Shown piece by piece: positions 2,694-21,576 of a stretch of DNA of 64,000 bases (positions are counted from its first letter, which is position 1; each line of letters begins with the position of its first letter). The notes beneath the pieces are model-generated. The model had not been told where the DNA came from, did not search any database, and saw nothing but the letters and a program-made list of their open reading frames with translations. The stretch is from Phycisphaeraceae bacterium (lineage in GTDB: Bacteria > Planctomycetota > Phycisphaerae > Phycisphaerales > UBA1924), in NCBI GenBank assembly GCA_019636615.1, contig JAHBXF010000001.1, positions 1,364,001-1,428,000 on the forward strand, in the 5' to 3' direction. The translations under genes were made by a program, and so were the position numbers.

Positions 2694-2754
2694 GAAAGCG
2701 GCGCCAGGCCTGCGGGCCCCGCGCCGCGGGAGAGAGAGCCGGTGAGGGTGGTTT

Positions 2755-4086: not shown

Positions 4087-4840
4087 GGTGATGGTTCCTT
4101 GGGCGATATGCACAGGGGTGTTGGGCTGCCCCCGCGGGTGTGGCTCCACGAGAGGTGAAGACACTTCCAGTGTACCAGCCTTCCCCCCGCCTGCGGAAGG
4201 GCATTTGGGCCCCGGCGCACGAAAAATGGCCGGATCGGGTGCCGGCCGGCCTTCGGATGGGCGAGAGTCCCTCGACGGTCACGGGATGGATGGTCAGAGC
4301 CGGGCCGAGGGGGTGTTGGCCCCGAAGAGTGCGGAAGGGCCGTTCGAGTTCGCTGGCCTGGGCCATGCGCTCACGCAGGCAGCCCAGCAGGCGATTTGTA
4401 GTCACCCCAATTCTCTTGGACAACCCGGAGGCTTCTTCGGCGTGGGGGTGCAGATCACCTCGGCACGGGTTCCAACGGGGCCTCGCCGCGCCACCGCCAA
4501 CGGTCGTGCGCCCTGGGGGCGGGAGACGAAAGGGCGGAGTACGAAAGGCGGAGTACGAAGGGCGGAGCCGCGCGGCGGTTTGGCGCGGGGCGGCCGCGCG
4601 TGAAGAGGGCTGCGGGCTGCGGGCATTCGCACCGTTCGCCGGAGCAACCGGCGGATGGTGGCACGACAAGACAACGGGCATGAGGTGCCTCCGGCCGATC
4701 GGGTTGCTGTTCTCGTCGTACTCGATGCCAACATCGTAGAACGCCCCGCCCCCCGCTCCGCTTCCAATCTCTGCCCATCTTGGGATCGATCACCCCTCAT
4801 TGCCGTACTTTAGCAAATCATAATTCCTGGATACTACTGC
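4087..4840. other. Intergenic region with a short tandem repeat and a possible RHS remnant
   Basis: I see no convincing gene in this 754-bp stretch. It contains the 5' region of the oxidoreductase cluster. A 14-bp-period repeat of GGCGGAGTACGAA lies at 4533-4545 and 4547-4559, with a partial third copy at 4561-4567. On the minus strand at about 4683-4755 a short open stretch reads FYDVGIEYDENSNPIGRR, which resembles an RHS/YD repeat and may be a leftover of the RHS locus next door. Open frames here otherwise lack coding character. Confidence 0.5.
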
Positions 4841-5332
4841 CTACTCGGGCGGATCCCACTCCCCGGATAGTAACTCTGTTTTTGCTTTTTCGACTTCCGG
4901 GTCCAAACCGGTCGCATAATTCGTTTCAAGCAGTTCAATTGCTTCAGCCTTTTTTCCCATTTGCGCGAGCACCCGTGCCAATCCAATGTAGGCACCCACG
5001 CCTGCGCCAAGCGAAATAGAATTGCGAAATGCCCGCTCCGCTTCGTCCAACAGATCGTGGCAATCCAGAAACCAAGCCAGCGATTCGAATGCCTCTGGAT
5101 TCTGGGGATCGAGCCTCGTTGCCTCGTGGTACAATGCAAGTATCTCGTCATTGTTCGCGGTGCTACCAGTCGGCTTGGCCATTATGAGTAGGTCAGCCAA
5201 CATGCATTTGAGTTGACCAGAATCGGGGTGGGCCGAAACCGCTTGACGAGCGAACTCCAACAAGCGGAATGGACATCGCTTGCCTCTTGGCCATTGATCC
5301 CATATTGCTTCAATGAACTCGTCCTCTGTCAT
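4841..5332 (-). CDS. TPR-repeat protein, candidate immunity protein of the RHS cassette
   Basis: This 163-residue soluble protein has tetratricopeptide-like helices: a unit around residues 60-100 (ILALYHEATRLDPQNPEAFE, then an LAWFL and LLDEAERAFR helix pair) and another around 110-140 (GLARVLAQMGKKAEAIELLE). There is no signal peptide. Its ATG at 5332 immediately follows the TAG stop of the RHS-core gene, with no gap, so the two are almost certainly translated together. The sequence is visibly richer in A and T than the surrounding genes, as is the RHS tail. A small gene right after an RHS toxin tail is normally its immunity gene, and TPR proteins can fill that role. That function is inferred from position only. 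Confidence 0.7.
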   Translation of the reverse strand: MTEDEFIEAIWDQWPRGKRCPFRLLEFARQAVSAHPDSGQLKCMLADLLIMAKPTGSTANNDEILALYHEATRLDPQNPEAFESLAWFLDCHDLLDEAERAFRNSISLGAGVGAYIGLARVLAQMGKKAEAIELLETNYATGLDPEVEKAKTELLSGEWDPPE

Positions 5333-6625
5333 CTAACAACCCGGATTGCTGTACGACTGCGACTGGGTGTTGGAGTCCTCTTCCGCCTTTTTCTGTCTCG
5401 CCTCTTCACATGCTGCCTGCACCTGTTTGTGAAACTCATCAAACGATGCTGACGCGGTCGGCCCCAAGGAACCAAAGGATGTCAGTATGTCCTGCGAGCA
5501 CTCCGTCGCGTCTCTATTCATCTGTAAAATATTGCAGTCGCCAGATTCAACTGCATCGGCGAGCCCATTGAAATAGCGACGGCACGACTGCCCCCTCTCG
5601 GTCTGGCCACTCAACAATTCTGAACTGGAGTCGAGAATGGCGACGCCGGCGAACAGGAGTGAAATTGCGGTTCCTCTACCTATGAAGCCCCGCCGCCCTT
5701 TAGGATGCCGAACTCCGGGAGCCTTCTGCTGGATACGTGAATTTTGCTCAATCAGCTTTTTAGCCTTTTTGATCTCGGCGAGTCGTCTTGCTTTCGTCTT
5801 CTTATCGAGCGTTTCGTCATTTTCTATCTTTGCCCTCTCGGCCTCCAACTCCGCCAAGGTGATGTCCCTCCGAAGCCAAGTTGGCCACTCGCCGTTTAGG
5901 CCGTACGGATCGACAAGACTCACCACTGTACTACCAACAAGTTCGTATAGACTCATCCCATCCACATACCCCAACGGATCCCGCCTCGTCCAACGCCCGA
6001 TCTCCGCCCAGTACACCCGGTGCCGCACGTGGCTCATGGCGATCACATGGTCCCACTCGTAGCCGGCGTAGCCCTTGCGGTTGCCCATCTCCGCCGATGA
6101 CACCCGGCCCTTGCCGTTCTGCCCCGTGTTGGCATCGTCACTGTCCATGAAGAGTGCGATGTCTGCGCTCGACCCGATGTCGCCATCGAAGTCCAGGTCG
6201 GGTTCCCCATCGGGCGTCGCGGCGAAGTCCCCCGTCGTCGTGCCCATGCCGAACGCGGTCAGGTCGTCGAGGTTGACAACTCCATCGCGGTTCACGTCTG
6301 CCAGAGGATAGACCGTCGGTTCGCCGTAGGCCGAGTACCGCACGAACTCCCAGGGGGCGCCATCGCTGCGGGTCACCGCCACCACATCAGCCCGCCAGTT
6401 CTGGCAGTAGAAGCGCCGCTCCTCCAGGGCACCGTCCGAGGCGCTGGTCCACGGTTCGTCGGTGTCCCGGTCACGGAGGATCACGCTGTCAATGTAACTG
6501 CTGCCGGTGAATACCGCCGCCGAGAGGGTGGGCTGGCTCAGCGTCGTCCCTCTCGATGTGCCCCGCACCGTGGCACGCGTGGGACGGCACCAAGACGGGC
6601 GGGAGAAGGTGGCAGAGGTGTCCAT
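5333..6625 (-). CDS. RHS repeat-associated core protein with variable, toxin-like C-terminal tail (5'-truncated)
   Basis: The frame contains an RHS-associated core (about 5880-6050; HVRHRVYWAEIGRW, RRDPLGYVDG, then VDPYGL), where RHS proteins normally switch from a conserved shell to a variable toxin. The roughly 185-residue tail has a charged coiled-coil-like stretch (AELEAERAKIENDETLDKK), one possible membrane helix (AISLLFAGVAILD) and ends in Cys; I do not recognise its activity. An EF-hand/dockerin-like insertion (LADVNRDGVVNLDD, then DLDFDGDIG) interrupts the RHS part at about 6140-6310. RHS similarity fades at about 6540 and there is no upstream repeat barrel or signal, so the gene is a truncated cassette, perhaps a displaced tip or pseudogene. 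The start at 6625 is nominal; the frame is open to 6883. The stop abuts the TPR gene's ATG. Confidence 0.65.
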   Translation of the reverse strand: MDTSATFSRPSWCRPTRATVRGTSRGTTLSQPTLSAAVFTGSSYIDSVILRDRDTDEPWTSASDGALEERRFYCQNWRADVVAVTRSDGAPWEFVRYSAYGEPTVYPLADVNRDGVVNLDDLTAFGMGTTTGDFAATPDGEPDLDFDGDIGSSADIALFMDSDDANTGQNGKGRVSSAEMGNRKGYAGYEWDHVIAMSHVRHRVYWAEIGRWTRRDPLGYVDGMSLYELVGSTVVSLVDPYGLNGEWPTWLRRDITLAELEAERAKIENDETLDKKTKARRLAEIKKAKKLIEQNSRIQQKAPGVRHPKGRRGFIGRGTAISLLFAGVAILDSSSELLSGQTERGQSCRRYFNGLADAVESGDCNILQMNRDATECSQDILTSFGSLGPTASASFDEFHKQVQAACEEARQKKAEEDSNTQSQSYSNPGC

Positions 6626-7209
6626 TCGCGTGCGCGACACGGCGTGCGCCGTGCTGCGGCGTTCGGAAGCCGCGCGGTGTTGGTGCGTGAACGAGGGAGA
6701 GGTGTGGGATGGATGCCGCGCATGCAGGGGAGGCGTGCCGCCTCCCCCGCACCCCCACCGCCTCACCGGCTGGGAGAGGGCGGGACAGGGATGGACACCT
6801 GGCATGATCGGTAGAGGAAGCGGCGGTGGCGTGGCTCGCTCCCAGACGGGACAGTTCCACGCTTCGCACTTGACCGGCATCACATATCACCCCTGCATCG
6901 AGCACACGTGGTTTGGATCGCGGCCGGGCCGCGTGCGGAACACGTACGCAAGGCATCAAGGCCGCTGATGCGGCGCCGATGGATATGGGCGTGAGCGTCT
7001 TTGGGGCGATGTGTGGCCGAGACTTGCCGCGCGAATCTTCTCGGACTGCAAACACGGGATTGACCAAGCCTTCAAAGACGGCCGCGAGACTCTACGGCCT
7101 GAAAGTCCGGTCGTGCGGTGGCGCTGGTTGAAGCGTCCGCGCGAAGCCGGCCTTGGGCGAGTGTCGTCACGTGTTTCAGGGGGCTGGTTCATCGCGGAGT
7201 CTGCAAGCC
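6626..7209. other. Intergenic region with a GC-rich hairpin
   Basis: I see no gene in this 584-bp stretch, although frames stay open because of GC richness. A perfect 8-bp hairpin (GGGGAGGC, 5-nt loop, GCCTCCCC) lies at 6727-6747 inside a low-complexity segment whose minus strand reads like the dispersed intergenic sequences common in GC-rich bacteria. The right end holds the 5' region of the prepilin-like gene at 7210. Confidence 0.5.
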
Positions 7210-8259
7210 ATGACAACAGTGCAGCGTTCACGTTTCGCCGGTGATCGAGCGGGTTTCACGCTCATCGAACTGCTGGTGGTCATCGCCATCATCGCGCTGC
7301 TCATCGGCATTCTGCTGCCGTCGCTGGGCAAGGCGCGGGCCTCGGCGCGTCAGATCAAGTGCGCGGCCAACGCACGCTCGGTGGTGCAGGGCATCGCCAG
7401 TTACCTGGTGAGCGGCCGGCAGTTATACCCGCCGCACTATGTCTACGGCGACAGCGAAGAGGGTTTCGGCTGGCGCATCGAAGACCAGCAGTTGAACAAC
7501 CCCAACCTGCAGAACGGCTATGTGCACTGGTCCTACTTCCTCTTTTCTGAAGGAAGCGTGAACGAGGACGCGTTCAAGTGCGCCGCCATGCCGCGCGGCG
7601 GCGCGCCGGCCACCAACCCCGGCCCGCGGGGAGAAGACTGGGAGCAGGGGCAGGTGAACGACCTTGGCGGCACCTCGGGCGCACAGACGCCCAACGACCG
7701 GCAGGTCAAGCGCATCGCCTACGGCGGCAACGGCGCGATCTTCCCGCGGAACAAGTTCTACAGCGCGGGCGGCGAGCGCAAGAACATCTTCGTGAAAGAC
7801 GCCGACATCCAGTTCACCGACCGCACGATCCTCATCGGCGAGTATGACCCCAGCCGCAACTACCACACGCTGCAAACAGGGTCAGACACGGTGCTTTACA
7901 AGTCTCACCGCCCCTTCACGCCCTTCATCGGCCTCTCGTCGGGCACGCAGGTCTATCAGGAGCCGATGGCGATGCGTGCGCAGGGGCGGTATCTCTACCC
8001 CCGGCTCGACGACATCGAGAACGACGTGCCCGCGGCGGGCATCGAGGACGGCGCCCGCACCACGCTCAACGCGGTGGGGCGGCACCACCCGGGGCCGCGC
8101 GACAGCAAGGGCGGCGGCAGCAACTTCGCCTTTGTCGATGGCCACGTCGAGTCGCTGACTGTTTCGGACACCATCCGCAAGCGCCTGTGGGGCGACAAGT
8201 TCTACAGCATGAGCGGGCCTTCCACGAAGGTGGATGTGAACGCCAACCCCGCGCCCTGA
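7210..8259 (+). CDS. Prepilin-type N-terminal methylation domain protein (pseudopilin-like, DUF1559-like)
   Basis: This 349-residue protein begins with a class III signal: a short basic leader, then [19 protein letters not shown], with Glu at position 5 after the predicted cleavage glycine. It is therefore a type IV pilin/type II secretion-like pseudopilin anchored in the inner membrane. The C-terminal [12 protein letters not shown] block is typical of the large planctomycete pseudopilin family. The start at 7210 puts the leader in the usual place; GGAG lies 10 bp upstream. An in-frame TTG at 7153 would add an unlikely 19 residues. A second, different pseudopilin is at 36403-37176. No secretion ATPase or prepilin peptidase is in the window, so the partner machinery lies elsewhere. 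Confidence 0.85.
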
Positions 8260-8502
8260 GCGGGCCCCAGAGCAATCCCCCTGACCCCGCGCTGGTGCCT
8301 AGCGGCGGAGCGCGGGCTTGAGAGCGGAGTGGTGCAGGGTCGGCGCCGTTGGCGCGGCCTGCTCAGCCATGAGGTGTTAAAGCCCGCCGCGGGAGCGGCT
8401 CGGCTGTGAGTGCGCGCAGGATGCGTCAAGGTTGTGTTCAGATTGATCTGGATTTGTGTTCGGAGGAGATCGGTGCTCATTCTTTTCAAAGAGAGGTCAC
8501 AG

Positions 8503-11406
8503 ATGAATCAGAAGACTCGGACCACGTTGATGCTCGCGGCCATGGCCGGGGCCTGTGTCGGCGTCGCCTCGGCACAGAACGGCGGCATGGTGAACATCTC
8601 CGGCGCCACCCTGCTGGAGAACTATGTGAAGGCGCCCGCCTCGACCAACGACTTTATTGATGTCGATGGAGACGGCATCGCCGGCTGGCTGGGAAGCCTG
8701 AGCGTGGACCAACTCGCCATCGGCGGGCCCGCGGGCACCGCCGGCCAGTCGCTCGTGGTGCAGTACCGCGTCGCGGGGTCGGTCAACGGGTTCAAGGAAC
8801 TCACCGGCTTTGGCTACCCCCGCTGTGTGAGCGGCGGTGATGACGAGGTGGGGGGCATCCTGGGCAACCGCCCGCAGGCCGACCCGCCCGTGCTCGGTGT
8901 GGCTTCGTTCGCGTACCACAACCGCGTGCTGTATATCAACAACGGCAACTCGGGGGGCATCCCTTCGCTCTACAACCAGGGCAACCCCGGCGGCGCGCCC
9001 AACCGCGTGGGCCCCGACTACCGCGCCACCTTCGCCAGCCCCCCCTTCGGCAGCGCCGGCTTCATGTGCATCGACATCGCCCCGATCGATGTTTCTTCCT
9101 TCCTGGCGGTGCAGAAGGCCGGCGACCCCGCGTGGAACCGCCGCTCTTCAGACCCCGGCTACGGCCGCAACCCCCGTCTTTCGGTGGCGCGCCCCTTCGG
9201 CGCTCCCGGCTTCGGCGGGCTCTCGCACCAACTGGCCGACCTCGACGGCCGCAACCTGTTCGACCCCACCAACCCCAGCGCCGCGGACGCGAACACGATC
9301 TTTGATACGTCCCTGGCCTTCGCCGCCATCACCCCGGTGATCAACCCCGGCACGGGCATGCGCCGCGTCTCGATGACCGAACTGCAGTACCTCTTCGGCA
9401 CGGGGCGCGCCGCCAGCGGCGAGAACCTCGTGGTGATCACGCGCGACGTGGGCTCGGGCACGCGCAACGCGTTCCAGAACTGCATCGGCCAGGACCCCTC
9501 TTGGGGCATCGGCGACAACGTCGGCGGTCTTTCGACCTCCGGCGCCGACCACGTCCTCGGGTCTTCGTACACCCCGACCAACAAAGGCTCCAACGGCGGC
9601 GTCGAGCAGGTGCTGCGCAACACGCGGCTGGGCATCGGCTATGTCGGCACCGAGCGCGGCGTGACCGGCAGCGGCAGCGGCTCGTGGCTCTCCACCGGCG
9701 CGCTCGAGATCCCCGATGTGCTCAACGACATCTACGGCGGCACCCAGTATGTGCGCCCCACCACGGCGAACCTGGTGAACAACAGCGCCAACGGCTGGCT
9801 CATCGGCGGTCAGGCAGTGCTCGCCACCGTCGGCGACCCGCGCTCTGCCCCCGCCAACCTCGGCGGGCAGGGGTGGGCCGGCGCGTTCGATCCCTACATC
9901 GACCTGAACAGCAACGGCCAGTGGGACCCGGGCGAGCCCTACACCGATCTCAACGGCAACGGCCAGTGGGACGGCAGCAACGCCGAGGCCGGCATGCCCG
10001 CCCGCACCACGCCCCCGATGCAGAACCCCTTCGCCGCCGCGTACATGAACAACATTTCACGCAGCATCGCGGCCGTGAACCAGATCCCCGATGACGCGCA
10101 GAACCTGGGCATGCCCGGCGAGTTCGCGGCGACACAGTTCCTGCTCACCGCCGCGCGCGACAACCTGCACGACGATCTTGACTACACCAACATGATCCCC
10201 AACCCGGACTTCAACCCCTCGGTGCAGGCCTACACCCTGGCGAACAACGTGCACAACAACGCGGCGTTCATCTCGTATAACGAGAGCACCTGCGGCCGCG
10301 TGCCCGCCCGCGCCACCGGCGCGGTCTACAGCGACGGCGTCGCCGGCGGCGCGTACTACATCAACCAGAAGCCCATCGCCGGCGGCGGCGACCCGGACGC
10401 CAACCGCCGCGTGCCCTACGGCGCGGCCATCAACTGCCGCAACAAGATCGCCGGTGACTTTGACGGCAGCGGCGCCCGCGATGCGGGCGATGTCTGCGAG
10501 ATGCTCAAGGCCTACCGCCAGCGCAGCGGCGGCCCCGTCTGGGCCCCCGCCGATGGAATCTACGGGCCCGGCGCCGGCGCCGAGGCCATCATCGAAGTTC
10601 TCGGCGACTTTGACGGCAACGGCTCCTTCGACATGGTTGATGTGCGCTACTTCGCCGACGGCCTTTACCTTGTCGATGGCGCGCTCGACCGGCGCGCCGG
10701 CTTCGTCGCCATCGATGAGTGCTGGCAGACCCTCACCGGCAACGCCAACTTCTTCGGCACGGTCATCGCCACCGGCAAGGCGTACGAGATCGGCGACAGC
10801 GTCGCTGATATCGCGGGCTCGGCCGGCGGGCCCACCGTGGGCTATGCCCCGTACGGCGCTGATGGCCGCATCGACGCGGCCGACATCGACTACGTCTACG
10901 CCCAGTTCCGCAGCAACCCCAACATCGCCGACGGCGTGGCCGACTGGCGCGACCTCAACAAGGCCGTGCACTTTGACCTCTCCGCCGATCTCAACGGCGA
11001 CCTCATCGTTGACGACAACGACATCTGCCTGCTGGTCACCGGCATCCTCGGCACTTCCATCGGCGATGTCAACCTCGACGGCGTGGTGGACAGCACCGAC
11101 CTGGCCATCGCCGTTGCTTACCGCAACGGGCTGGACGCGCCGGGCGGCTGGGCCAACGGCGATGTGGACGGCGACGGCCTCGTCACCGAGTCTGACCTGG
11201 CCATCATCGCCTCCGGCGGCGGGTGCGCCTGCTTCTGCGCGGCCGACTACAACCGCGACGGGGGCGTGGACGGCGCCGATGTCGAGTCCTTCTTCATCGA
11301 CTGGGAGGCGGCCGAAGGGTGCGCCGACGTGAACCAGGACGGCGGCGTGGACGGCGCTGACGTTGAGTTCTTCTTCACCCAGTGGGAGGCGGGCGGCTGC
11401 GACTGA
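8503..11406 (+). CDS. Secreted PstS-like substrate-binding protein with multiple dockerin-type repeats
   Basis: This 967-residue protein has a signal peptide (LMLAAMAGACVGVASA, cleavage near residue 26) and a GAGAGG ribosome site before the ATG. Residues about 28-520 resemble phosphate-type binding proteins: VNISGATLLENYV near the start and the anion-loop-like VITRDVGSGTRNAF near residue 310. Later come several calcium-loop segments (GDFDGSGARDAGD, GDFDGNGSFDMVD, GDVNLDGVVDSTD, GDVDGDGLVTESD). The protein ends in the duplicated repeat shared with four other proteins here (YNRDGGVDGADVESFF, then VNQDGGVDGADVEFFF) and a final Gly-Gly-Cys-Asp. It is probably surface-attached through the repeats. 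Whether it binds phosphate is inferred; it is much longer than a transport PstS, and no pst transporter is adjacent. Confidence 0.8.
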   Translation: MNQKTRTTLMLAAMAGACVGVASAQNGGMVNISGATLLENYVKAPASTNDFIDVDGDGIAGWLGSLSVDQLAIGGPAGTAGQSLVVQYRVAGSVNGFKELTGFGYPRCVSGGDDEVGGILGNRPQADPPVLGVASFAYHNRVLYINNGNSGGIPSLYNQGNPGGAPNRVGPDYRATFASPPFGSAGFMCIDIAPIDVSSFLAVQKAGDPAWNRRSSDPGYGRNPRLSVARPFGAPGFGGLSHQLADLDGRNLFDPTNPSAADANTIFDTSLAFAAITPVINPGTGMRRVSMTELQYLFGTGRAASGENLVVITRDVGSGTRNAFQNCIGQDPSWGIGDNVGGLSTSGADHVLGSSYTPTNKGSNGGVEQVLRNTRLGIGYVGTERGVTGSGSGSWLSTGALEIPDVLNDIYGGTQYVRPTTANLVNNSANGWLIGGQAVLATVGDPRSAPANLGGQGWAGAFDPYIDLNSNGQWDPGEPYTDLNGNGQWDGSNAEAGMPARTTPPMQNPFAAAYMNNISRSIAAVNQIPDDAQNLGMPGEFAATQFLLTAARDNLHDDLDYTNMIPNPDFNPSVQAYTLANNVHNNAAFISYNESTCGRVPARATGAVYSDGVAGGAYYINQKPIAGGGDPDANRRVPYGAAINCRNKIAGDFDGSGARDAGDVCEMLKAYRQRSGGPVWAPADGIYGPGAGAEAIIEVLGDFDGNGSFDMVDVRYFADGLYLVDGALDRRAGFVAIDECWQTLTGNANFFGTVIATGKAYEIGDSVADIAGSAGGPTVGYAPYGADGRIDAADIDYVYAQFRSNPNIADGVADWRDLNKAVHFDLSADLNGDLIVDDNDICLLVTGILGTSIGDVNLDGVVDSTDLAIAVAYRNGLDAPGGWANGDVDGDGLVTESDLAIIASGGGCACFCAADYNRDGGVDGADVESFFIDWEAAEGCADVNQDGGVDGADVEFFFTQWEAGGCD

Positions 11407-11531
11407 ACGCGGTTCTACGCACGGCGACGCCGACGGCGGCTCGCCCGCGTGCGAACAGGCGTTTCAGAGACAGCCCCGCAACGTTGATCACCCCGCTTGG
11501 TGCGCCCAGACACACGGCCACCAACACTCCA

Positions 11532-11569
11532 CCGAAGGGCCCGCCACCGTGCGGGCCTTTCGGCTTTTT
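11532..11569 (+). terminator. Rho-independent terminator after the PstS-like dockerin gene
   Basis: A 13-bp stem (CCGAAGGGCCCGC paired with GCGGGCCTTTCGG, one G-U pair) and a short loop are followed by CTTTTT, about 125 bp after the stop of the 8503-11406 gene and before pdxA. Confidence 0.85.
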
Positions 11570-11666
11570 GGGCGCCCCGGGGTTTGTGCGGCGCGTCGGC
11601 GGGCCGCGCCGCACCCCCGCCCCCGGCCACTACGCTTGGTTGCACCGCTCAGAGCGAGGTGCACAC

Positions 11667-12755
11667 ATGCCATCAGATCTATCCATCCCTTCGGTCTGCA
11701 TCACACTGGGCGACCCCGGCGGTATCGGCCCGGAGGTGGTGCTCAAGGCGCTGGCAGACCCCGCCCGCCGCGCCGGCGCGAGGTTCATCATCCTGGGCCC
11801 GGCCGTCGCGCTCGAACGCGCGGCCGCGCTGGCCGGCATCGAACCATTCTGGACAACGCTCCCCGCGGGGCTCTCCGGCGACGGGGCCTTCTGGCGCTCG
11901 CACGGGCCCGCCCCGTTGCTGATGGATTCGTGCGGCGGCCGGCCGCGCGAGTGTGCCCCGGTTTTCCCCGCGGCCCCGGCGCGGGAATCGGGCGCGTTGT
12001 CGTATCAGTGCGTGATCGACGCGATACACCTGGCGCGTCTGCCGGCGGGCGACCACCGGCGCGTCGATGCCATCGTCACGGGGCCCATCAGCAAGAAGGC
12101 GTGGGCCCTGGCGGGTCACGGGCAGTTCCCCGGGCACACAGAACTTCTGGCCCACGCATTCGGTGCGCCTTCCTGCGCCATGTTCTTTCACGCGCCGGCC
12201 ATGCAAGACCGCCCGGGGCTGAATGTCGCGCTGGTCACGGTGCACATCCCCATCTCGCGCGTCGCGGCGGCGCTCACCACCAGCGCGATCGCGCAGACCA
12301 TCGAACTCACCGCCCGTGCCGTCGAGAGGCTCGGCGTGCACGCCCCCCGCATCGCGGTCTGCGGGCTCAACCCGCACGCGGGCGAAGAGGGCCTGCTGGG
12401 CAGCGAAGAAGAGACCATCATCGCCCCGGCGGTGGCGCAGGCCCGCGCCGCGGGGCACTCGGCCTACGGGCCCTTCCCGGCAGACACCATTTTTCAGCGG
12501 GCGCTCTCGCTGCCGGGCGTGCGTCCGCCGTTTGATGCCGTGGTCGCGATGTACCACGATCAGGGCCTTGCCCCGCTCAAGACGCTCGCGTGGGACCGCG
12601 CCGTGAATATGACCCTTGGCCTGCCCACGGTGCGCACCAGCCCGGACCACGGCACGGCCTTCGACATCGCGGGCGCCAACAGCGCCAACCCCGGCAGCAT
12701 GGCCGCGGCCATCGACCTCGCCGTGCGCTGCGCGGCGCCCGGGCGGGTGGAGTGA
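11667..12755 (+). CDS. pdxA: 4-hydroxythreonine-4-phosphate dehydrogenase
   Basis: This 362-residue protein matches PdxA, the cytoplasmic NAD-dependent enzyme of de novo pyridoxal 5'-phosphate synthesis that oxidises 4-phosphohydroxy-L-threonine. Family blocks appear in order: LGDPGGIGPEV near the N-terminus, TGPISKKA, PGHTELLA, CGLNPHAGEEG, MYHDQGLAPLK and TSPDHGTAFDIAG; the histidines in the second, third and fifth regions include the metal ligands. The length fits the family (about 330-360). The start at 11667 follows GAGG by about 8 bp, and the frame upstream is non-coding. A strong terminator lies just upstream, so it has its own promoter. No other pyridoxine gene is nearby. The product would supply PLP to enzymes such as the cystathionine synthase at 44961. 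Confidence 0.95.
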   Translation: MPSDLSIPSVCITLGDPGGIGPEVVLKALADPARRAGARFIILGPAVALERAAALAGIEPFWTTLPAGLSGDGAFWRSHGPAPLLMDSCGGRPRECAPVFPAAPARESGALSYQCVIDAIHLARLPAGDHRRVDAIVTGPISKKAWALAGHGQFPGHTELLAHAFGAPSCAMFFHAPAMQDRPGLNVALVTVHIPISRVAAALTTSAIAQTIELTARAVERLGVHAPRIAVCGLNPHAGEEGLLGSEEETIIAPAVAQARAAGHSAYGPFPADTIFQRALSLPGVRPPFDAVVAMYHDQGLAPLKTLAWDRAVNMTLGLPTVRTSPDHGTAFDIAGANSANPGSMAAAIDLAVRCAAPGRVE

Positions 12756-13043
12756 TCCTGCGCCGTTGGCGCGTCGTACTCATGTGTGTGCCGGGTCGAA
12801 CCTTCCATCCGTTACAGCCCGCACGCGCCAAAACGGCCGCGCCGCCGACACCTCCGGCACGGGCGGCGCGGGCGGGCGGGGCCGGCACCCCAATCGCGCG
12901 ACACGAGGGGGAGTTGGCGTGCGGGCTTCCCGATAGCCCCATAGATTCCGCGCGTGCTCCACGTGTCCCCACGCGCGCGCCCCCGGGGCCCTGGCGGGTG
13001 CGCGTGACAGACGGTCAAGACCCGACGAAACCTCGATACAGCC

Positions 13044-15107
13044 ATGCCGATCACCATGCTTCAACACCGCGACCCCGCACCTCTGGCCAACCGCCCTGTT
13101 GAGTGGCTCGCCCCCCTCGCGAAGTGGTTGATGGGCGTTGTTTCGGCCCTGCTGGTGTCGTGCGCGCACGCGGACGACACGGGCGGGGGCGGCTCGACGC
13201 CGCGCACGCAGACGCTGCATTGGATGGGCACGACCGACGACAACGAGGTGCGCTGGCGCACCGGCATCAGGTGGTCAGAGAGGTTGCGCTTCGGCGATCT
13301 GCCGGTGCGCAACGACATGGCGGTGATCTATCAGCAGTGGATCGCCGACGACGTGCGTGCGCAGGGGCTGGGCATGACGCGCGTGAGTTCGTACACCGAC
13401 GATTACCGCCAGACGATCTCGCGCTGCCTGGCCGAGCGCGTGCCGGATGTCAACTTTGACGGCTACATCCTCATCGATATCGAGTTCATGCCGCTGATCT
13501 GGGGCAAACGCACGGGCGGGCCTGACCTGTATGAAGAGGCCGACCACGGCCCGCGGCAGTTCGATACGTGGTACACCTATATCCGCAACAACCGGCCCGA
13601 GGTCACGCAGAACCTGGGCACCGAGGCCGCGGAGCACGCGCTGGCCGAAACATACGAGCAGGCGGTGCGCGAGTGGCTGACCCTCACCTTCCACCTGTTC
13701 AGAGAACTGCGCCCGAACGCGAAACTGTCGTACTACGGCATGCCCATGGGCTCGCGTCACTGGCAATACAACACGCCGGACCCCAACATCTGGAAGCAGC
13801 GCAACGACCGCCTGTCGTGGCTTGTCACGCTGCAGGACGCCCAGATGATCCCGCTCTATCAAGACCGCATCACCGTGCCCGAGGGCACCACGCCGCGCGG
13901 CCAGTGGCAGAACACCATCGCGCAGAGCGAGGATTGGATCATCTCCAACCTGCGTGAAGCACGCCGCATCGGTCAGGGCAAGCCGGTGCTGGTGCTGGCG
14001 ATGGTCAAGTACATGGAGTACATCCCCGGGTACGAACTGGCCTTCCTGCAGCCGATCAACCTGGATCACATGCTGCGGCTGCCGCTGGTGCACGGCGCCG
14101 ATGGGCTCATCTTCTGGGATCACATCGAGAACCAGACTCAGTTCAACGAACTGCAGTCGTTCATCGATCAAAGCGTGGTGCCCCTCCTGCTCCCCATGTT
14201 CCAGACCGGCGGCGGCTCCGGTGGCGGCGGCGATACCGGCGGCGGATCTGGTGGCGGCGGCGATACCGGCGGCGGATCTGGTGGTGGCGGCGACACCGGC
14301 GGCGGATCTGGTGGTGGCGGCGATACCGGCGGCGGATCTGGCGGCAGCGGTGACACCGGCGGCGGCTCCGGCGGTGGCGGCGACACGGGCGGCGGTTCCG
14401 GCGGCGGTGGCGACACGGGCGGCGGATCTGGTGGCGGTGGCGACACGGGCGGTGGTTCTGGTGGTGGTGGCGACACGGGCGGCGGATCTGGTGGCGGTGG
14501 CGACACGGGCGGCGGATCTGGCGGTGGTGGCGACACGGGCGGTGGTTCTGGCGGTGGCGGCGACACGGGCGGTGGTTCTGGCGGTGGCGGCGACACGGGC
14601 GGTGGTTCTGGCGGTGGTGGCGACACGGGCGGTGGTTCTGGCGGTGGTGGCGACACGGGCGGCGGCTCCGGTGGTGGTGGCGATCCGGGCGGTGGTTCGG
14701 GTGATGGTGGCGATACCGGCGGCGGATCTGGTGGTGGTGGCGACACGGGCGGCGGCTCCGGTGCGGGGAGTTCTGGGGCCGGGGGCGGATCTGGTGGAGA
14801 GACTCAGGGTGGTGGTTCCGGTGGCGGATCCGGCGGGGGATCAAATATTGAGGAGGGGCCCCGGCCCCCAACACCTGCCGAGCAAGTGGCGGCCGCGCGG
14901 GCCCGCATGGGGATTGTGGTCCGCAAGGCCGCGCCAGCGCAGAATCTGCCCCGCAACCGGGTGACGGTGAGTCGTATCGCTCGGCCAAATCAGCACTTAT
15001 ACCGCTTGAGCACGGGTCAAACCGTTCGCTCGCCGGGGTTGCGGGTGATGGAGCGGAACAACCTGATCAGGGTGTTGCCGAGGACAAGTTCGGGCACGAG
15101 GCCGTGA
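13044..15107 (+). CDS. Secreted hyaluronidase-like (GH56-like) glycosidase with long Gly/Ser/Asp/Thr repeat
   Basis: This 687-residue protein has an N-terminal export signal around residues 28-44 (GVVSALLVSCAHA); LVSC could also be a lipobox. Residues about 50-385 recall GH56 hyaluronidases: ILIDIEFMPLIWGKR matches their catalytic loop, with Asp145 and Glu147 in the Asp-x-Glu position, followed by AETYEQAVREW and LFRELRPNAKLSYYGMP, like the FExAAxxFM...LRP...YxFP pattern, and a late DGLIFWDH block. Residues 388-567 are 18 ten-residue units of TGGGSGGGGD type, then a short basic C-terminal region. The start is uncertain: ATGs at 13044, 13056 and 13131 are in frame and none has a strong ribosome site. 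The GH56 assignment rests on motif resemblance. A plain terminator follows at 15249. Confidence 0.65.
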   Translation: MPITMLQHRDPAPLANRPVEWLAPLAKWLMGVVSALLVSCAHADDTGGGGSTPRTQTLHWMGTTDDNEVRWRTGIRWSERLRFGDLPVRNDMAVIYQQWIADDVRAQGLGMTRVSSYTDDYRQTISRCLAERVPDVNFDGYILIDIEFMPLIWGKRTGGPDLYEEADHGPRQFDTWYTYIRNNRPEVTQNLGTEAAEHALAETYEQAVREWLTLTFHLFRELRPNAKLSYYGMPMGSRHWQYNTPDPNIWKQRNDRLSWLVTLQDAQMIPLYQDRITVPEGTTPRGQWQNTIAQSEDWIISNLREARRIGQGKPVLVLAMVKYMEYIPGYELAFLQPINLDHMLRLPLVHGADGLIFWDHIENQTQFNELQSFIDQSVVPLLLPMFQTGGGSGGGGDTGGGSGGGGDTGGGSGGGGDTGGGSGGGGDTGGGSGGSGDTGGGSGGGGDTGGGSGGGGDTGGGSGGGGDTGGGSGGGGDTGGGSGGGGDTGGGSGGGGDTGGGSGGGGDTGGGSGGGGDTGGGSGGGGDTGGGSGGGGDTGGGSGGGGDPGGGSGDGGDTGGGSGGGGDTGGGSGAGSSGAGGGSGGETQGGGSGGGSGGGSNIEEGPRPPTPAEQVAAARARMGIVVRKAAPAQNLPRNRVTVSRIARPNQHLYRLSTGQTVRSPGLRVMERNNLIRVLPRTSSGTRP
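14205..14744 (+). repeat. In-frame 30-bp minisatellite, 18 units
   Basis: Eighteen consecutive 30-bp units encode the decapeptide TGGGSGGGGD, with rare variants (GGSGD, PGGGSGDGGD). Third positions vary between units (GGC/GGT, TCC/TCT, ACC/ACG). Downstream, irregular Gly/Ser/Ala-rich sequence continues to about 14840. The complementary strand is also open (a Pro-Val-Ser-Pro repeat), but only as a by-product. Confidence 0.95.
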
Positions 15108-15248
15108 GCCGCGAGGGAGAGCCCGCGAGGCGGGGGGAAAAAGTCTGAGAGTTTTTTGGCAACCACTGCAACCGAAGGCCCGGCCGCATCGGATACTCTG
15201 GCGTCCTTCGGGCCATGCCCGTAGGACCCCACAACCGACCCCCACGAG

Positions 15249-15295
15249 ACCCGGCACTTGGGTTCGTTTCTGAGTGCCGGGTATTTTTCTTTTTT
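15249..15295 (+). terminator. Rho-independent terminator after the GH56-like gene
   Basis: A perfect 10-bp stem (ACCCGGCACT paired with AGTGCCGGGT) is followed by ATTTTTCTTTTTT. It lies about 140 bp after the stop at 15107 and points along the plus strand. Confidence 0.9.
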
Positions 15296-15379
15296 GACCC
15301 GCCCGCACGCTCGCCGCCGGGCGCGCGGCACTCGCCCCGGTCCCCGTTCAGAGGGCTCGCGCGACGGGGCGCGTCAATC

Positions 15380-16492
15380 TCACTGACCGATCCGCACGCC
15401 ACCATCGGGCGCGTGCAGGCGCATCGCGCGGCCCCATCTGGCCAGGCCCGTGTAGTACCCGGGCATGATGATCACGTCGCCGTTGCTGGGCGCCGCGTTG
15501 TACGCGTCGGGAAAGTTGTTGTAGGGGAAGGCCCACGTGCCGGGGCCGTTGGGGCTGGCGCCGATCCGCGCCACTTTGGCCCAGCCGGGCTGGTAGATGC
15601 GCATCGCCGTGGCGCGGTCGCCGAAGGTGCTGTGCGCCCGCTGGCCGATGCGGCTCTGCCAGATGCCCGCGAAGGCCGGCTGCACCGTGATGGTGTCGCC
15701 GCCGATGGTGAAGGCGGTGCGGCTGTAGTGCATGAACGAAGAGAAGTTGTAGATGCCCACGGTCAGCGAGTTGTTCTCGATGTTGAAGTTGCTGTTGCAC
15801 GGCCCGTTGCAGGCTGTCTGGCTGATGAGCGACGTGTTGATGGTGACGAAGTTGTCGCGGTCTGTGCGTGACTGCTCGTGGTAGATGCCCAGCACGTGGA
15901 AGAGTTCGTGCACCATGATGTAGTGCACGTTCCAGTTCACGATGTTCACCACGCGCTGGCCGTTGCCAAAGCCGATGGGCGCGTTGTTCGCCGTTGAGTT
16001 CTGGATGTGAATCCACGACAGGTGGAAGTCCTGCTTGGGCACGAACGTCACGGCGCAGTACGCCGAAACTTCGGACATCGCCGCGTTGAAGAGCGTTCGG
16101 TTCGCCTGTGAGACGTTGCCGTCATACTCAAAGGGGATGACCCCGCCGGGCCAGGGGGGCGCGGGGCTGTAGGGGCCGCGCGGCTCAAAGAATGGCAGTT
16201 GCACGCACCCGCTGATGTAGTGCCCGGGGGTCACCTCAAGGCCGGACTCGGGGGGCACAAACTCTTCGGGGGGTTCCGGCTCGTGCAGGGCTTCTGCCGC
16301 GGGCGCGGGAGGGGGCGGCGGCGGGGGCGCGGGGTCGTGCGCGGGGCGTTGCAGCAGCGGCGGGCTGATCGGCGGCGGGGCCATGTCGGGCAGCGTGTGC
16401 TGCGCCGCGGCGCGCCCGGCGCACAACGCCAACGACACAACCGCCGCCAGCGCGGCGATGGACGAGAAGATGGAAGAGAGCGGCTTGTTCAT
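15380..16492 (-). CDS. Secreted astacin-family zinc metallopeptidase (M12A-like)
   Basis: This 370-residue protein has a signal peptide (IAALAAVVSLALCAGRAAA, cleaved near residue 30) and a proline-rich linker (residues about 38-80). The catalytic region carries the astacin signature VHELFHVLGIYHEQSRTDRD: zinc ligands His195, His199 and His205, catalytic Glu196, and the family-specific HExxR extension. The Met-turn is SSFMHYS (Met254), with the expected tyrosine two residues on. Astacins are secreted endopeptidases. About 100 residues follow the catalytic part, with no dockerin tail. The gene begins 18 bp after the tail-fibre-like gene on the same strand, so the two are probably one transcript. 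A Pro-rich segment between signal and catalytic domain may act as propeptide or spacer. Confidence 0.9.
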   Translation of the reverse strand: MNKPLSSIFSSIAALAAVVSLALCAGRAAAQHTLPDMAPPPISPPLLQRPAHDPAPPPPPPPAPAAEALHEPEPPEEFVPPESGLEVTPGHYISGCVQLPFFEPRGPYSPAPPWPGGVIPFEYDGNVSQANRTLFNAAMSEVSAYCAVTFVPKQDFHLSWIHIQNSTANNAPIGFGNGQRVVNIVNWNVHYIMVHELFHVLGIYHEQSRTDRDNFVTINTSLISQTACNGPCNSNFNIENNSLTVGIYNFSSFMHYSRTAFTIGGDTITVQPAFAGIWQSRIGQRAHSTFGDRATAMRIYQPGWAKVARIGASPNGPGTWAFPYNNFPDAYNAAPSNGDVIIMPGYYTGLARWGRAMRLHAPDGGVRIGQ

Positions 16493-16510: not shown

Positions 16511-18682
16511 TTACTGCAGGTTCACGAGCACCAGCACCAGGCCGCGCTCGCCCTGCGCCAGCGGCGTCATGGCCTTGCCGATGACAGCGCCGGGCGCGCG
16601 GGCGTCGTCGGCGGCGCGCATGGCGTGCCCGGGCGTGCCGGAGGTTGTCAGCCGGTCGCCGGGCCTGATCTCGTGTTCGGTCGCGTCGGCGAAGCACCAC
16701 ACGCGGCCGGTCATGGCCACGGGGTGAGCGCCGCTGGCCAGGGGGTTGTTGATGTCGCGCATGAGCATGCCGGGCGAGAGGCCGTTGGCGCCGGAGATGA
16801 TGCCGGCCACTTTCGTGTCATACTCGCTGCACGAGATGCGCAGGTTGCCCGCCGAGTCAGGGTCGATCACCACCACCATTCCAGGCACGGGCTCGCCGGC
16901 GATGTCGAAGGGCTCGGCGAGGTCGGCCCCGCCCAGGATGTCGAGCGCGCGAACCGCGGCGATGCCGTCGGCAAAGAGGGCGCGCCCGCCAGCGTCGTTG
17001 CGGCAATAGATGGCGGAGGCGTTCAGGCCGCGCGAGATCGCCACAAACCCGTTGCCCTGGTCAGACTCGGCCCACGCGCCTTCCCCCGCGCCGCCCAGCC
17101 AGGCGCGGTTCACGTTGGCCGGGGTGCCGCCGGGGTTGCGCTCGGCGTAGAGGGCGAAAGAGCCCGAGGTGGTGCGTGCCACAAACCCGGTGCCCGAGGG
17201 GCTCTCGGCATAACCGCCCTCGCTCGCGCCGCCGAACCACCCGCGGTTGTTGTTCGCCGTGCGCACGCCGTAGAGGGCGATGCCCCCGGTCGCGGTTTCG
17301 GCGTAGAGCCCGTAGCCGGTTGAGACAGCGCGACCGTAAAGCGCACGCCCGACCGAGGTGTAGCCATAGACACCCAGCGCTTCCGAGTTCTCGCCGTAGA
17401 CGCCCGCGGCAAGAGAGTTGCTGCTGCTGCTCACGCCCAGCACGCCGTAGTTCTGGCCGGTCGTTGAGGTGGCGTGTCCGCGGACACCTATGCCCGAGTT
17501 GGCGCGGGCTTCGCCGCGCACGCCCGCGGCGCTGCCGGTGCCCGTGGCCGAGGCAAGGCCAAAGACGCCGTACTGGTTCATGAACGTGCCGCTGTGAGAA
17601 CCCAGCACCGCGCCGCCCGTGGCGTTGCTGGCCGCGCCGCTGAGGCTGCCGCCGAAGACGCCGTTGCCGGTGAAGGAGGCGTTGCCGCTGCCGTCGTCGA
17701 TGGTGTTGCGCCAGGTGGGCGAGCCGCCGGTGTTGGTCAGCGTGCCCACGCGACCGGTGTTCTGCACACCAAAGAGGGAGATTCTGCCGCTGGCGGGCAC
17801 GATGCCCCACGCGCCGGCGGTGGGGTTATACAGGCCCAGTTGCAGCGTGGAGAACGAGTTGAGCACGAAGCCGCCGCCCGTGTCGTTGCTGTTGCGCACC
17901 CGCACCGAAACATCGGGCCCGAAGACTTCGAGCCGGTCGCTGGGCGAGGCCGTGCCGATGCCCACCAGGCCGCTGAAGATGTTGTTGGCCGCGAAGGTGT
18001 TGGCGATGTCCCGCCTCGCGACGTTCGTGGATAGCCGCGCGTCGGCCAGCGTGCCGCTGGCGAGGTTCGAGGCGTTGAGCCCCGTGAGCCCCGCGCCGCT
18101 GCCGGTGAACGAACTCGACGCGTTCGAGAAGGTCATCGCCCCGGTGAAGGTCTGCGCGATGTTTGTGCGCGCCACCGAACTGGCCAGGCGGGCGTCGGCC
18201 ACCACGCCCGAACTCAGGTTCGAGGCGTTGGTGAAAAAGGTCGCGGGCTGTCCGCCGAGGTTCGCGGCGTTGCCCGCGGTGTCGGCCGCGCCGGCGAGCG
18301 TGGCGTAGATGGCGATGGGCGCCGCGGTGATGGCCTGGCGCGAAGAGAGCAGGGTGTACCCGGAGGTGTTGGCGCACGAGAGGCCCGTGTCCTGGCGGGT
18401 TTCAACTTCAAGATAGCGCGTCGCGCCGGAGGTGAACTGCCCGCCGAAGTCAAGAACAACGGTGAAGAGGCCGTCGGTGACTTCAACGTTGTCGGCGCAC
18501 AGCGTGCCGCCCAGCGGCGTGCCCCCGCTGGGCACGCTGTACAGCCGGAAGCGGATGTCGTGGGCCCCTTGCGCGGGTTGCCCCGCGCTCGTCAGCACCC
18601 CCTGATAGGTGAACGACGTTTGGGCCAGCGCGGCATGACAGCCACCGGCGATCGCGGCCGCGACAACGATGCGACGAAGCAT
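16511..18682 (-). CDS. Secreted tail-fibre-like repetitive protein
   Basis: This 723-residue protein has a signal peptide (VVAAAIAGGCHAALA) and an ATG at 18682 preceded by GGAGG at ideal spacing. Residues about 22-125 form a conserved head (SFTYQGVLTSAGQPAQGAHD). A phage-tail-fibre-like stretch with Asn/Ala/Ser repeats follows (NASNLSSGVVADARL, NASNLASGTLADARL; GVGTASPSDRLEV-like register). Residues about 340-560 are Gly-rich short units such as GVFGLAS, GVRGEA, GVYGEN, GVYGYT, suggesting a beta-solenoid. The C-terminal about 130 residues (GADLAEPFDIAGEPVPG to VLVLVNLQ) look like a compact conserved domain. I cannot assign a biochemical role; an extracellular fibre or adhesin is inferred. It lies directly upstream of the astacin gene (18 bp). 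Confidence 0.75.
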   Translation of the reverse strand: MLRRIVVAAAIAGGCHAALAQTSFTYQGVLTSAGQPAQGAHDIRFRLYSVPSGGTPLGGTLCADNVEVTDGLFTVVLDFGGQFTSGATRYLEVETRQDTGLSCANTSGYTLLSSRQAITAAPIAIYATLAGAADTAGNAANLGGQPATFFTNASNLSSGVVADARLASSVARTNIAQTFTGAMTFSNASSSFTGSGAGLTGLNASNLASGTLADARLSTNVARRDIANTFAANNIFSGLVGIGTASPSDRLEVFGPDVSVRVRNSNDTGGGFVLNSFSTLQLGLYNPTAGAWGIVPASGRISLFGVQNTGRVGTLTNTGGSPTWRNTIDDGSGNASFTGNGVFGGSLSGAASNATGGAVLGSHSGTFMNQYGVFGLASATGTGSAAGVRGEARANSGIGVRGHATSTTGQNYGVLGVSSSSNSLAAGVYGENSEALGVYGYTSVGRALYGRAVSTGYGLYAETATGGIALYGVRTANNNRGWFGGASEGGYAESPSGTGFVARTTSGSFALYAERNPGGTPANVNRAWLGGAGEGAWAESDQGNGFVAISRGLNASAIYCRNDAGGRALFADGIAAVRALDILGGADLAEPFDIAGEPVPGMVVVIDPDSAGNLRISCSEYDTKVAGIISGANGLSPGMLMRDINNPLASGAHPVAMTGRVWCFADATEHEIRPGDRLTTSGTPGHAMRAADDARAPGAVIGKAMTPLAQGERGLVLVLVNLQ

Positions 18683-18844
18683 TCGAGTACCCTCCATGTG
18701 CGAGACTGACAAACGCTAGGCCGGTATCTGGTATCGGGTCATGCCCTCACAGGAGGTGAGTAGCCCGATAACGCCGGGGGGGGGTCGAGATTCTCTGTCG
18801 GAGGGGAGGGTTGGGGGGGCAGCCGGCAGTGGCAACCCTGCTGT

Positions 18845-18850
18845 TATGAT
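18845..18850 (+). promoter_or_regulatory. Possible -10 element for the AAA ATPase gene
   Basis: TATGAT matches the bacterial -10 hexamer at five of six positions, 33 bp upstream of the preferred ATG at 18883. No good -35 partner is seen. It lies over the alternative TTG start at 18850, which argues for the ATG. Confidence 0.35.
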
Positions 18851-18882: not shown

Positions 18883-21576
18883 ATGCCGGATCCCACACTC
18901 GCCGCACCGATTTCACCTTTCACCTCTATTCTGGCTTGGTCGGCGACTTGGCCGGACTGGCAACGTGACGCTTTACGAAGGATTGTCGAATCGGGGCCAC
19001 TGAGGCCTGAAGATTTGAAGGAACTCGCGGCGATCTGCCGCGCGAAGCATGGGCTATTGCCCACAACGGAAGCCGCGCCGACAGCGGTTCCGCTAGCCGC
19101 AGCCCACTCGCCTGGCGGCGCGGGCGACACCTCATCGGTCAGCCTGTCCAAACTATCTGGTCTCCAGAATGTAGGTCGATTGCCGAACGATCAGGAAATC
19201 GAGTTCGGGGATGCGCCGGGTCTCACGGTGATCTATGGCGAGAACGGGGCGGGAAAGTCGGGATACGCCCGTGTCATCAAGAAGGCGTGCCGAGCTCGTG
19301 GGACGCCGGAAGAGATCAAGCCAGATGTCTTCGTCGCGGCTGCGGCTGGCCCAGCCAGGGCCAAGATCGGCTACCGAGTTGGATCGGTAAACACTCAGAT
19401 CGATTGGACGGACGGCAGCACATCCGATCCTTGTTTAAGCAACATCTTTGTGTTCGATTCATTCAGCGCGCGAGTCCACGTCGGCGAGGATGGCCCCGCG
19501 TGCTTCAAGCCGCGCGGCCTGGACGTGCTGCCGGAACTCGCCAAGGCGTGCGACACGATCAAAGCGGACCTACAAACCGAGATCGATGCGGAGTACAAGA
19601 AGATCAAGGAGGCACGCGACGGGTGGAGTCGCAACGGCACAACCACCGTTGCAAAACTGGTCAACGCGATCGACGCGAACACCGACCCCGCCAAAATCGA
19701 ATCGGCAGCCGCGTTCACAGGCAACGACGAGAAGCGACTGACCGAGATCAACGCCACACTGAGCACCGACCCGAAGCTGAAAGCGGCCGCCACAAGCGCC
19801 GCAGCGAACCGCATACGCACATTCGCCGAGACCGCCATGAGCCGCGCGACGTCTGTGGAAGATACCGCCATGCAGAGACTTGGCGAGGCGATCAAGGACG
19901 CGGAGACAGCCGCGAAGGCGGCCAAGGCCGCAGCTGGGCCGGAACTGAAGGACAGTGACCTGCCAGGCAGTTGCAATGATGTGTGGCTTAAACTGTGGGA
20001 CGCGGCAAAGGCGTACTCGGTTGCTCACGCGTACCCCGACAAGACGTTCCCCGTCACGGATAGGGGTGCGAAGTGCGTTCTGTGCCAGCAATCATTGCAA
20101 GCCGACGCGATTGACCGTTTCTCCCGCTTCAACAAGTTCGTCGCCGAGGAGACCCGCAAGCATGCAGAGGCGGCTAAAGCCAAGGTGACAACGATGAAAC
20201 TCGGCGTGGATTCGCTCCGTGCAATTGGGACCGAGGCAGCCAACATCAAGACTGACCTAGATCGCGAAGCCGCAGGGGCGTACACAGCAGTCGAAGCCTT
20301 TGCCAAGGCGTTTGACGCTCGGGTTGCTCACGCTCAAAAGTGTCTGAAAGACGGGACATGGACAGACGCACCGGTCCTTCTTGCGTCGCCGTGTGCGAAC
20401 TTGATCACACTCGCAGAGAACCTTGATAAGCGTGCAATGGAGGAGGAAGCCGCCGCCGACCCGAAGAAGAAGCAGGAGTTGGAGAAGGAGCGAGACGAAC
20501 TCACCGACAGGAGGTGGCTCGAATCCAAAATTGATGAAGTCAAGGCCCAGATCAACTGGCACGCCCGCGCCGCGAAGTTGAAGAAGTGCCAAGAGGACTG
20601 TGCAAGCCGACCCGTGTCCGACAAAGCCAAGGAACTCGACAAACTGCACGTAACAGCGGCATTCTGCAAGGCATTCGCAAACGAACGCGATGCGCTCGGT
20701 CTGAAGACGCTGCCGGTGTCTTTGTCGGCAGTGCGGGTGGCTAAGGGAGAAAGCCAGTTTGCGGTCGTCGTGGACGGTGCGGCCAACGCGAACGTTGAAG
20801 AAATTGCAAGCGAAGGCGAGCATCGGTGCATCGCGCTGGCCGCGTTCATGGCCGAATTATCTCAGGCGTCACACAAATCGGCTCTGGTGTTTGACGACCC
20901 GGTATCTTCGTTGGACCACAGACGCCGCGAGGAGATCGCCAAGCGATTGGTTCGCGAAGCCGAGACTAGACAGGTGATTGTGTTCACTCACGATCTGGCG
21001 TTTGTGTGCGATTTACAAGATGCGAACTTGGGCGGCCGAAAGGCGATCCACTGCCAGCATATTGAATGGAGGGCAGGCAAGCCGGGAAGCGTCGCTGCTG
21101 GCCTGATCTGGGATGCAAAGAGCACCGACCAACAGCTGAAGGATCTGCGAGAACGCATCGGTCGCGCCGACAAGACCAAGCGTGAAGGAACCGACTCAGA
21201 GTATAAGAGTGCCGTAGGGCCGATCGTGGATGACATGCGTTCGACGTGCGAAAGGATCATCGAGGACGTCTTGCTCGGAGACTTACTCAAACGTCACTCA
21301 AGCCAGATAAAGGTTGGGCACGTGGATCGAGTGGCCAAAGTCCGAGCCGAAGATTGGTTGGCGATCAAACGTATTTGGAGCGAGTGCTCCGAAGCCACGC
21401 CTGCCCACGCAAACGCCAAGAGCGGCCCTCACAAAATACCCGAGCCTGCGACTTTTAGAGAATGGATAAACACTCTAGAGGCGACGGTCGAGACGGTAAA
21501 GAACGCAAGAAAGACATACGGGGGTACTGTGATCACGGAGCCCAAGCCCCCATCGGTGCCTGATCCGTTCGCCTGA
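18883..21576 (+). CDS. SMC/RloC-like AAA ATPase with CxxC hook, candidate defence protein
   Basis: This 897-residue cytoplasmic protein has the split-ATPase layout of SMC, Rad50 and RloC/PrrC-like proteins. Walker A is GENGAGKS (119-126). A long helical region is broken by KCVLCQQSL (Cys398 and Cys401), a zinc-hook-like CxxC. After the second helical arm come EGEHRCIALAAFMAEL (signature region), LVFDDPVSSLDHRR (Walker B Asp671-Asp672 and D-loop) and VFTHD (His703). About 130 further residues form a helical tail with an Arg-x3-Glu (786/790) and a later His842; an anticodon-nuclease-like (HEPN) activity as in RloC is possible but unproven. The gene stands alone and is less GC-biased than its neighbours, suggesting acquisition. 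ATG at 18883 has GAGG upstream; a TTG at 18850 is the alternative. Confidence 0.82.
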   Translation: MPDPTLAAPISPFTSILAWSATWPDWQRDALRRIVESGPLRPEDLKELAAICRAKHGLLPTTEAAPTAVPLAAAHSPGGAGDTSSVSLSKLSGLQNVGRLPNDQEIEFGDAPGLTVIYGENGAGKSGYARVIKKACRARGTPEEIKPDVFVAAAAGPARAKIGYRVGSVNTQIDWTDGSTSDPCLSNIFVFDSFSARVHVGEDGPACFKPRGLDVLPELAKACDTIKADLQTEIDAEYKKIKEARDGWSRNGTTTVAKLVNAIDANTDPAKIESAAAFTGNDEKRLTEINATLSTDPKLKAAATSAAANRIRTFAETAMSRATSVEDTAMQRLGEAIKDAETAAKAAKAAAGPELKDSDLPGSCNDVWLKLWDAAKAYSVAHAYPDKTFPVTDRGAKCVLCQQSLQADAIDRFSRFNKFVAEETRKHAEAAKAKVTTMKLGVDSLRAIGTEAANIKTDLDREAAGAYTAVEAFAKAFDARVAHAQKCLKDGTWTDAPVLLASPCANLITLAENLDKRAMEEEAAADPKKKQELEKERDELTDRRWLESKIDEVKAQINWHARAAKLKKCQEDCASRPVSDKAKELDKLHVTAAFCKAFANERDALGLKTLPVSLSAVRVAKGESQFAVVVDGAANANVEEIASEGEHRCIALAAFMAELSQASHKSALVFDDPVSSLDHRRREEIAKRLVREAETRQVIVFTHDLAFVCDLQDANLGGRKAIHCQHIEWRAGKPGSVAAGLIWDAKSTDQQLKDLRERIGRADKTKREGTDSEYKSAVGPIVDDMRSTCERIIEDVLLGDLLKRHSSQIKVGHVDRVAKVRAEDWLAIKRIWSECSEATPAHANAKSGPHKIPEPATFREWINTLEATVETVKNARKTYGGTVITEPKPPSVPDPFA

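Follow-up and report, generated by a model that had tools for sequence, protein, structure and literature searches.

A probably horizontally acquired RloC-like gene of the candidate defence family PDC-S06 in a Phycisphaeraceae genome

The window analysed here, a 64,000-nucleotide stretch of Phycisphaeraceae DNA, carries a solitary gene that is an ordinary, well-supported addition to PDC-S06, a widespread and already catalogued candidate defence family, and nothing new in kind. We propose that the gene probably encodes a self-contained abortive-infection protein of the RloC type, in which a Rad50-like sensor is combined with a HEPN RNase that would be triggered by phage and bring translation to a stop. 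The open reading frame is intact, running on the forward strand from an ATG at 18883 to a stop at 21576 and giving a product of 897 aa, with an in-frame TTG at 18850, upstream of the ATG, as a possible alternative start. The features discussed below are collected in Table 1.

Table 1. Features of the RloC-like gene, in window coordinates.
Feature	Position	Strand	Basis
CDS, PDC-S06 / RloC-like ATPase-HEPN protein	18883..21576	+	PADLOC PDLC04891, residues 12-876, E=2.1e-186
N-terminal helical region, residues 10-84, conserved W19/W26	18910..19134	+	model and alignment
Walker A GENGAGKS, residues 119-126	19237..19260	+	translation and alignment of relatives
Zinc-hook motif C398-V-L-C401 between two predicted coiled-coil arms	20074..20085	+	49/49; helices on both sides in model
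ABC signature-like S-E-G-E, residues 643-646	20809..20820	+	alignment of relatives
Walker B and D-loop LVFDDPVSSLD, residues 668-678	20884..20916	+	translation and alignment
H703, switch histidine (TH motif)	20989..20991	+	48/48
C-terminal helical domain, residues 748-879, HEPN-like, proposed RNase effector	21124..21519	+	AlphaFold2 and PDB matches
R786, proposed catalytic triad	21238..21240	+	47/48; published RloC rule R-x3-E-x36-52-H
E790, proposed catalytic triad	21250..21252	+	48/48
R804, further conserved arginine	21292..21294	+	46/48
H842, proposed catalytic triad	21406..21408	+	48/48; hhalign pairs it with the RloC histidine

Family membership was established with the PADLOC model PDLC04891, which aligns almost end to end with the protein (profile 3-857/858), and three further PDC-S06 models (04893, 04888 and 04892) match over most of their own length. 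The Pfam family AAA_13, which comprises the PrrC/RloC ATPases, is matched at residues 396-713. In length and domain order the protein is the same as other members and shows no substantial difference from them. PDC-S06 is a computational candidate label and not a validated system, the literature searched gave no published mechanism for it, and the long branch to which the query belongs appears uncharacterised there. Four RloC-type proteins that we scanned are also PDC-S06 in PADLOC, through other models (PDLC04887, 04894 and 04896). Since both the RloC types and the longer branch of the query are filed under PDC-S06, the label spans both.

RloC is defined by Arg-x3-Glu-x36-52-His, often with a Ser before the His that is not required (Davidov and Kaufmann, PMC2610378). 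In the Geobacillus kaustophilus protein the replacement of any one triad residue abolishes activity, whereas an RloC hook cysteine mutant is more active, the anticodon nuclease being restrained by hook and ATPase (PMC2610378). DNA breaks activate RloC, which in Acinetobacter baylyi cuts tRNA-Glu and tRNA-Gln (PMC3874168). RloC is further characterised by an anticodon nuclease activity that excises the wobble nucleotide. Like the RloC proteins of these two species, the query joins an ABC ATPase to a coiled-coil CxxC hook and a C-terminal R-x3-E-xn-H (PMC2610378), and all the ABC ATPase features of RloC, from Walker A and the signature to Walker B and the switch histidine, are present. The preliminary description had placed the motifs at G119-S126, C398/C401, D671-D672, H703, R786-x3-E790 and H842, all of which are correct on the translation.

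Conservation was read from an alignment of 49 relatives with 20-72% identity to the query, one row of which stops short of the columns counted out of 48. Both hook cysteines are invariant in it, as are D671 and D672 of Walker B and the switch histidine (48/48 each). The C-terminal third is weakly conserved, with a mean identity to the query of 20%, yet within it G735, R786, E790, R804 and H842 are conspicuously conserved (46-48 of 48). The spacing from Glu to His is x48-52 across the relatives and x51 in the query, inside the published range, and the residue before the triad histidine in the query is A841, not Ser. Because they are near-invariant over the 49 relatives, the positions of the motifs are not due to chance.

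For comparison we assembled 17 RloC-type proteins meeting the published definition, among which CxxC and R-x3-E...S-H are invariant, including the Ser before the His (17/17). A profile-profile comparison (hhalign) of the query branch with this set gave E=1e-28 over residues 82-872 which, together with a triad that fits the published rule, bears out the RloC-like layout first proposed from the sequence. The C-terminal domains alone align weakly with those of RloC (E=0.002, probability 13%), and in it H842 falls opposite the RloC histidine, whereas R786 and E790 are not matched to the RloC Arg and Glu. The query is also about 100 residues longer and has its Walker A at residue 119, whereas in the RloC-type proteins, which lack the N-terminal region, it lies at about residue 40-50; the hook reads C-x-L-C-x-Q in the query branch and C-x-F-C in RloC, the Ser before the triad histidine is absent from the branch, and the two are matched by separate PADLOC models. 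Within the additional N-terminal region W19 is found in 43/46 and W26 in 44/46 relatives, and no counterpart of residues 10-84 was found in the other proteins searched; the weak matches that might have made it a domain common to other proteins were rejected as chance or as wrong-frame ORFs. Taken together, the protein most likely works like RloC and belongs to PDC-S06, and we do not assert strict RloC membership because the C-terminal match is weak and the N-terminal region is extra.

In the AlphaFold2 model of the isolated C-terminal region we observed a helical bundle (mean pLDDT 82), for which the top three PDB matches in Foldseek, 1wol, 5yep and 2hsb, are HEPN or HepT proteins; these matches have a probability of 0.96-0.99 but are weak (E=0.07-0.08), and other helical bundles come next. 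The HepT toxins 5yep and 7bxo are among the structures resembling the model. Helical bundles match one another easily in structure searches, and the predicted fold is best described as HEPN-like, not proven. Sequence searches of the PDB and Pfam with the C-terminal region returned nothing useful. The full-length model (mean pLDDT 83, pTM 0.58) resembles SMC and Rad50 heads. The possibility, raised beforehand, that the C-terminal region would prove to be a non-nuclease fold is not what the model suggests, its nearest neighbours being HEPN, if weakly (best E=0.07). The preliminary description had allotted about 130 residues to the stretch after H703, whereas there are 194, with the predicted helical domain at about 748-879. 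The extra C-terminal domain that it had pointed out is present, but is not new: PDC-S06 is catalogued in PADLOC, and the nuclease domains of PrrC and RloC have been assigned to HEPN, with further ABC-HEPN fusions described, by Anantharaman and colleagues (PMC3710099).

By analogy with RloC, we hypothesise that the Rad50/SMC-like ABC head, the coiled-coil arm and the CxxC zinc hook would hold the C-terminal HEPN RNase silent until a phage-associated signal, with DNA ends or DNA damage the likeliest, is sensed by the head. The RNase, with R786, E790 and H842 as its putative catalytic residues, would then be freed by ATP hydrolysis and a rearrangement of the hook, and its cleavage of RNA, most likely at the anticodon loops of tRNA, would bring translation to a halt. 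We infer RNase activity, a tRNA target, a DNA-damage trigger and a role in phage defence because the protein matches PDC-S06 over its full length, the triad and hook are conserved, the profiles of branch and RloC match, the C-terminal model is HEPN-like, several relatives lie in defence-rich surroundings and the spread of the gene is mobile and patchy. The case for RloC-like working is weakened by the weak HEPN match, the C-terminal profile E-value of 0.002, the candidate standing of the PDC-S06 label, the lack of an adjoining defence gene and the unconvincing comparison with control loci described below.

The differences from RloC allow a more divergent view that we put forward only tentatively, in which the branch is a distinct class of hooked ABC-HEPN defence protein, having an N-terminal sensing region to itself and perhaps another RNA target and trigger than RloC, spreading as a one-gene cassette on plasmids and viral elements across phyla. 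A HEPN RNase defence protein directed at mRNA, rRNA or another RNA instead of the tRNA anticodon is rather unlikely, although HEPN RNases with such targets exist (for example RNase LS and LsoA; PMC3710099), the Ser found throughout the RloC set is missing from the branch and the two C-terminal domains bear no more than a distant resemblance; against this, an R-x3-E-xn-H with such spacings is that of the PrrC/RloC anticodon nucleases (PMC2610378). PrrC itself shares the ABC ATPase and the C-terminal R-x3-E-xn-H nuclease, but is hookless and relies on a type I RM system linked to it (PMC2610378). The PrrC model matches the query weakly and in the ATPase part only, and HsdR was not detected in the genome of the window, which makes a PrrC-like arrangement with type I RM in this genome unlikely; with the hook present and no type I RM found in the genome, identity with PrrC was rejected.

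Several lines of evidence support horizontal acquisition of the gene, as had been proposed at the outset. In a tree of 27 members the planctomycete proteins are intermixed with proteobacterial plasmid copies, and a constrained planctomycete clade is rejected (p-AU 9e-40); the copy from the same taxonomic family (G270, L005) clusters with a Rhizobium plasmid copy and not with the window gene. The DNA likeness to the nearest homologue (L002, 72% identity) covers 18925-21560 only, and the flanks differ. GC inside the gene is 0.57-0.62, compared with mostly 0.65-0.72 in the surroundings, confirming the lower GC bias already noticed from the sequence, and relatives turn up both on plasmids and in viral contigs. 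An empty-site comparison was dropped: the upstream neighbour (16514-18712, reverse strand), a 733-aa protein without a Pfam match, belongs to a multi-copy family that numbers 8 matches within the same genome and as many as 20 in relatives, and is useless as an anchor for the site.

The gene is present once in its own genome, and relatives were found in 13/392 genomes of the phylum (about 3%), a count to which the genome of the window itself and two matches limited to the ATPase part contribute; within the class, a strong match (E below 1e-50) was obtained in 7/298 genomes and is truncated in one. This patchy distribution, together with the rejected planctomycete clade (AU p=9e-40), excludes a near-universal, vertically inherited housekeeping DNA repair ATPase, the reading against which acquisition had been set in the preliminary description. 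A plasmid collection yielded 264 records with a match, 130 of them conjugative; in 161 of the 264 the match spans 80% or more of the query, with Klebsiella and Pseudomonas foremost. More than 20 relatives were found in IMG/VR viral contigs and zero in INPHARED phages, for which reason spread through known isolated phages is not proposed. On viral contigs L060, L068 and L069, and at L021, copies are truncated or split into two ORFs, as expected of a costly accessory gene. Two further copies (L018 and L020) were not counted as pseudogenes, since the flagged stops near the match end look natural and the proteins would simply be slightly shorter.

At its own locus the gene stands alone, with the genes on both sides on the opposite strand, in agreement with its description as monocistronic. 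A PADLOC scan of ten nearby proteins gave zero matches, no defence gene adjoins it in the window, and the scan of neighbouring proteins revealed no partner nuclease for the ATPase. The genes around it code for secreted or metabolic proteins, including a hyaluronidase-like protein, an astacin, an asparaginase, a nitroreductase, an FGE-sulfatase-domain protein and a dockerin protein; they had been called unrelated envelope genes, a description that, as to the envelope, fits only loosely. One of the window's genes (13044-15107, forward strand) encodes a domain of the hyaluronidase family (GH56), after which comes a long Gly-rich GGGDTGGGSG repeat.

To survey neighbourhoods for defence islands we read 16 plasmid loci, and several of them are clearly defensive. 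On a Moellerella plasmid (L050, locus 6820-13801) the relative is flanked by hsdS and hsdR within a type I RM operon with an Abi gene near, a placement known for PrrC and some RloC. Other relatives lie near BREX pglZ/brxL (Methylomonas) or adjoin Dsr1 (Shewanella), SAVED, nucleotidyltransferase and Abi genes in a CBASS-like arrangement (Qingshengfaniella), a BsuBI-type RM system (Burkholderia) or a DNA methyltransferase (Acidiphilium). Around the planctomycete relatives, defence-model matches were not convincingly commoner than in control stretches in a small comparison, with type III MTases, helicases and others among 101 neighbour proteins as against RT and MTase matches among 121 in the controls.

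The abundance of relatives on plasmids, and their presence in viral contigs, would also fit a role in anti-plasmid defence, or in plasmid or prophage maintenance or competition, instead of host phage defence. We regard this as improbable, as mobile elements commonly carry phage defence, several relatives adjoin phage-defence systems (Dsr1, BREX, type I RM) and the window copy is chromosomal and solitary. Quite improbable is a Rad50/SMC-like DNA repair or DNA-binding ATPase without an effector, whose C-terminal helices would be structural or partner-binding: head and hook do resemble Rad50 and SMC, and SOS and DNA polymerase genes are found close to some of the relatives on plasmids, but Rad50 and SbcC, which share the ATPase head, coiled coil and hook, have no such C-terminal nuclease-like domain (PMC2610378), the few conserved C-terminal residues are polar and fit the RloC triad and spacing, and the distribution is patchy and mobile.

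If the RloC-type reading is true, one-gene RNase abortive infection with a Rad50-like sensor extends to planctomycetes, and a testable mechanism, involving triad, hook and N-terminal region, becomes available for a large and still anonymous share of PDC-S06 that plasmids commonly carry, resistance plasmids of Klebsiella and Staphylococcus among them. On the Klebsiella plasmid pKP15ZE495-1 (L043, locus 1054-16234) the relative, at 7983-10673, lies between tmexCD1-toprJ1, the genes of a tigecycline-resistance pump, and site-specific integrases. Many plasmids of Klebsiella, Pseudomonas and Raoultella give the same near-identical score, pointing to a resistance element with a candidate defence gene among its cargo. 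A distant relative with 22% identity is found on the Staphylococcus epidermidis plasmid pC99MK1 (L044, locus 5500-8043), a qacA/mupA resistance plasmid, where a recombinase gene adjoins it.
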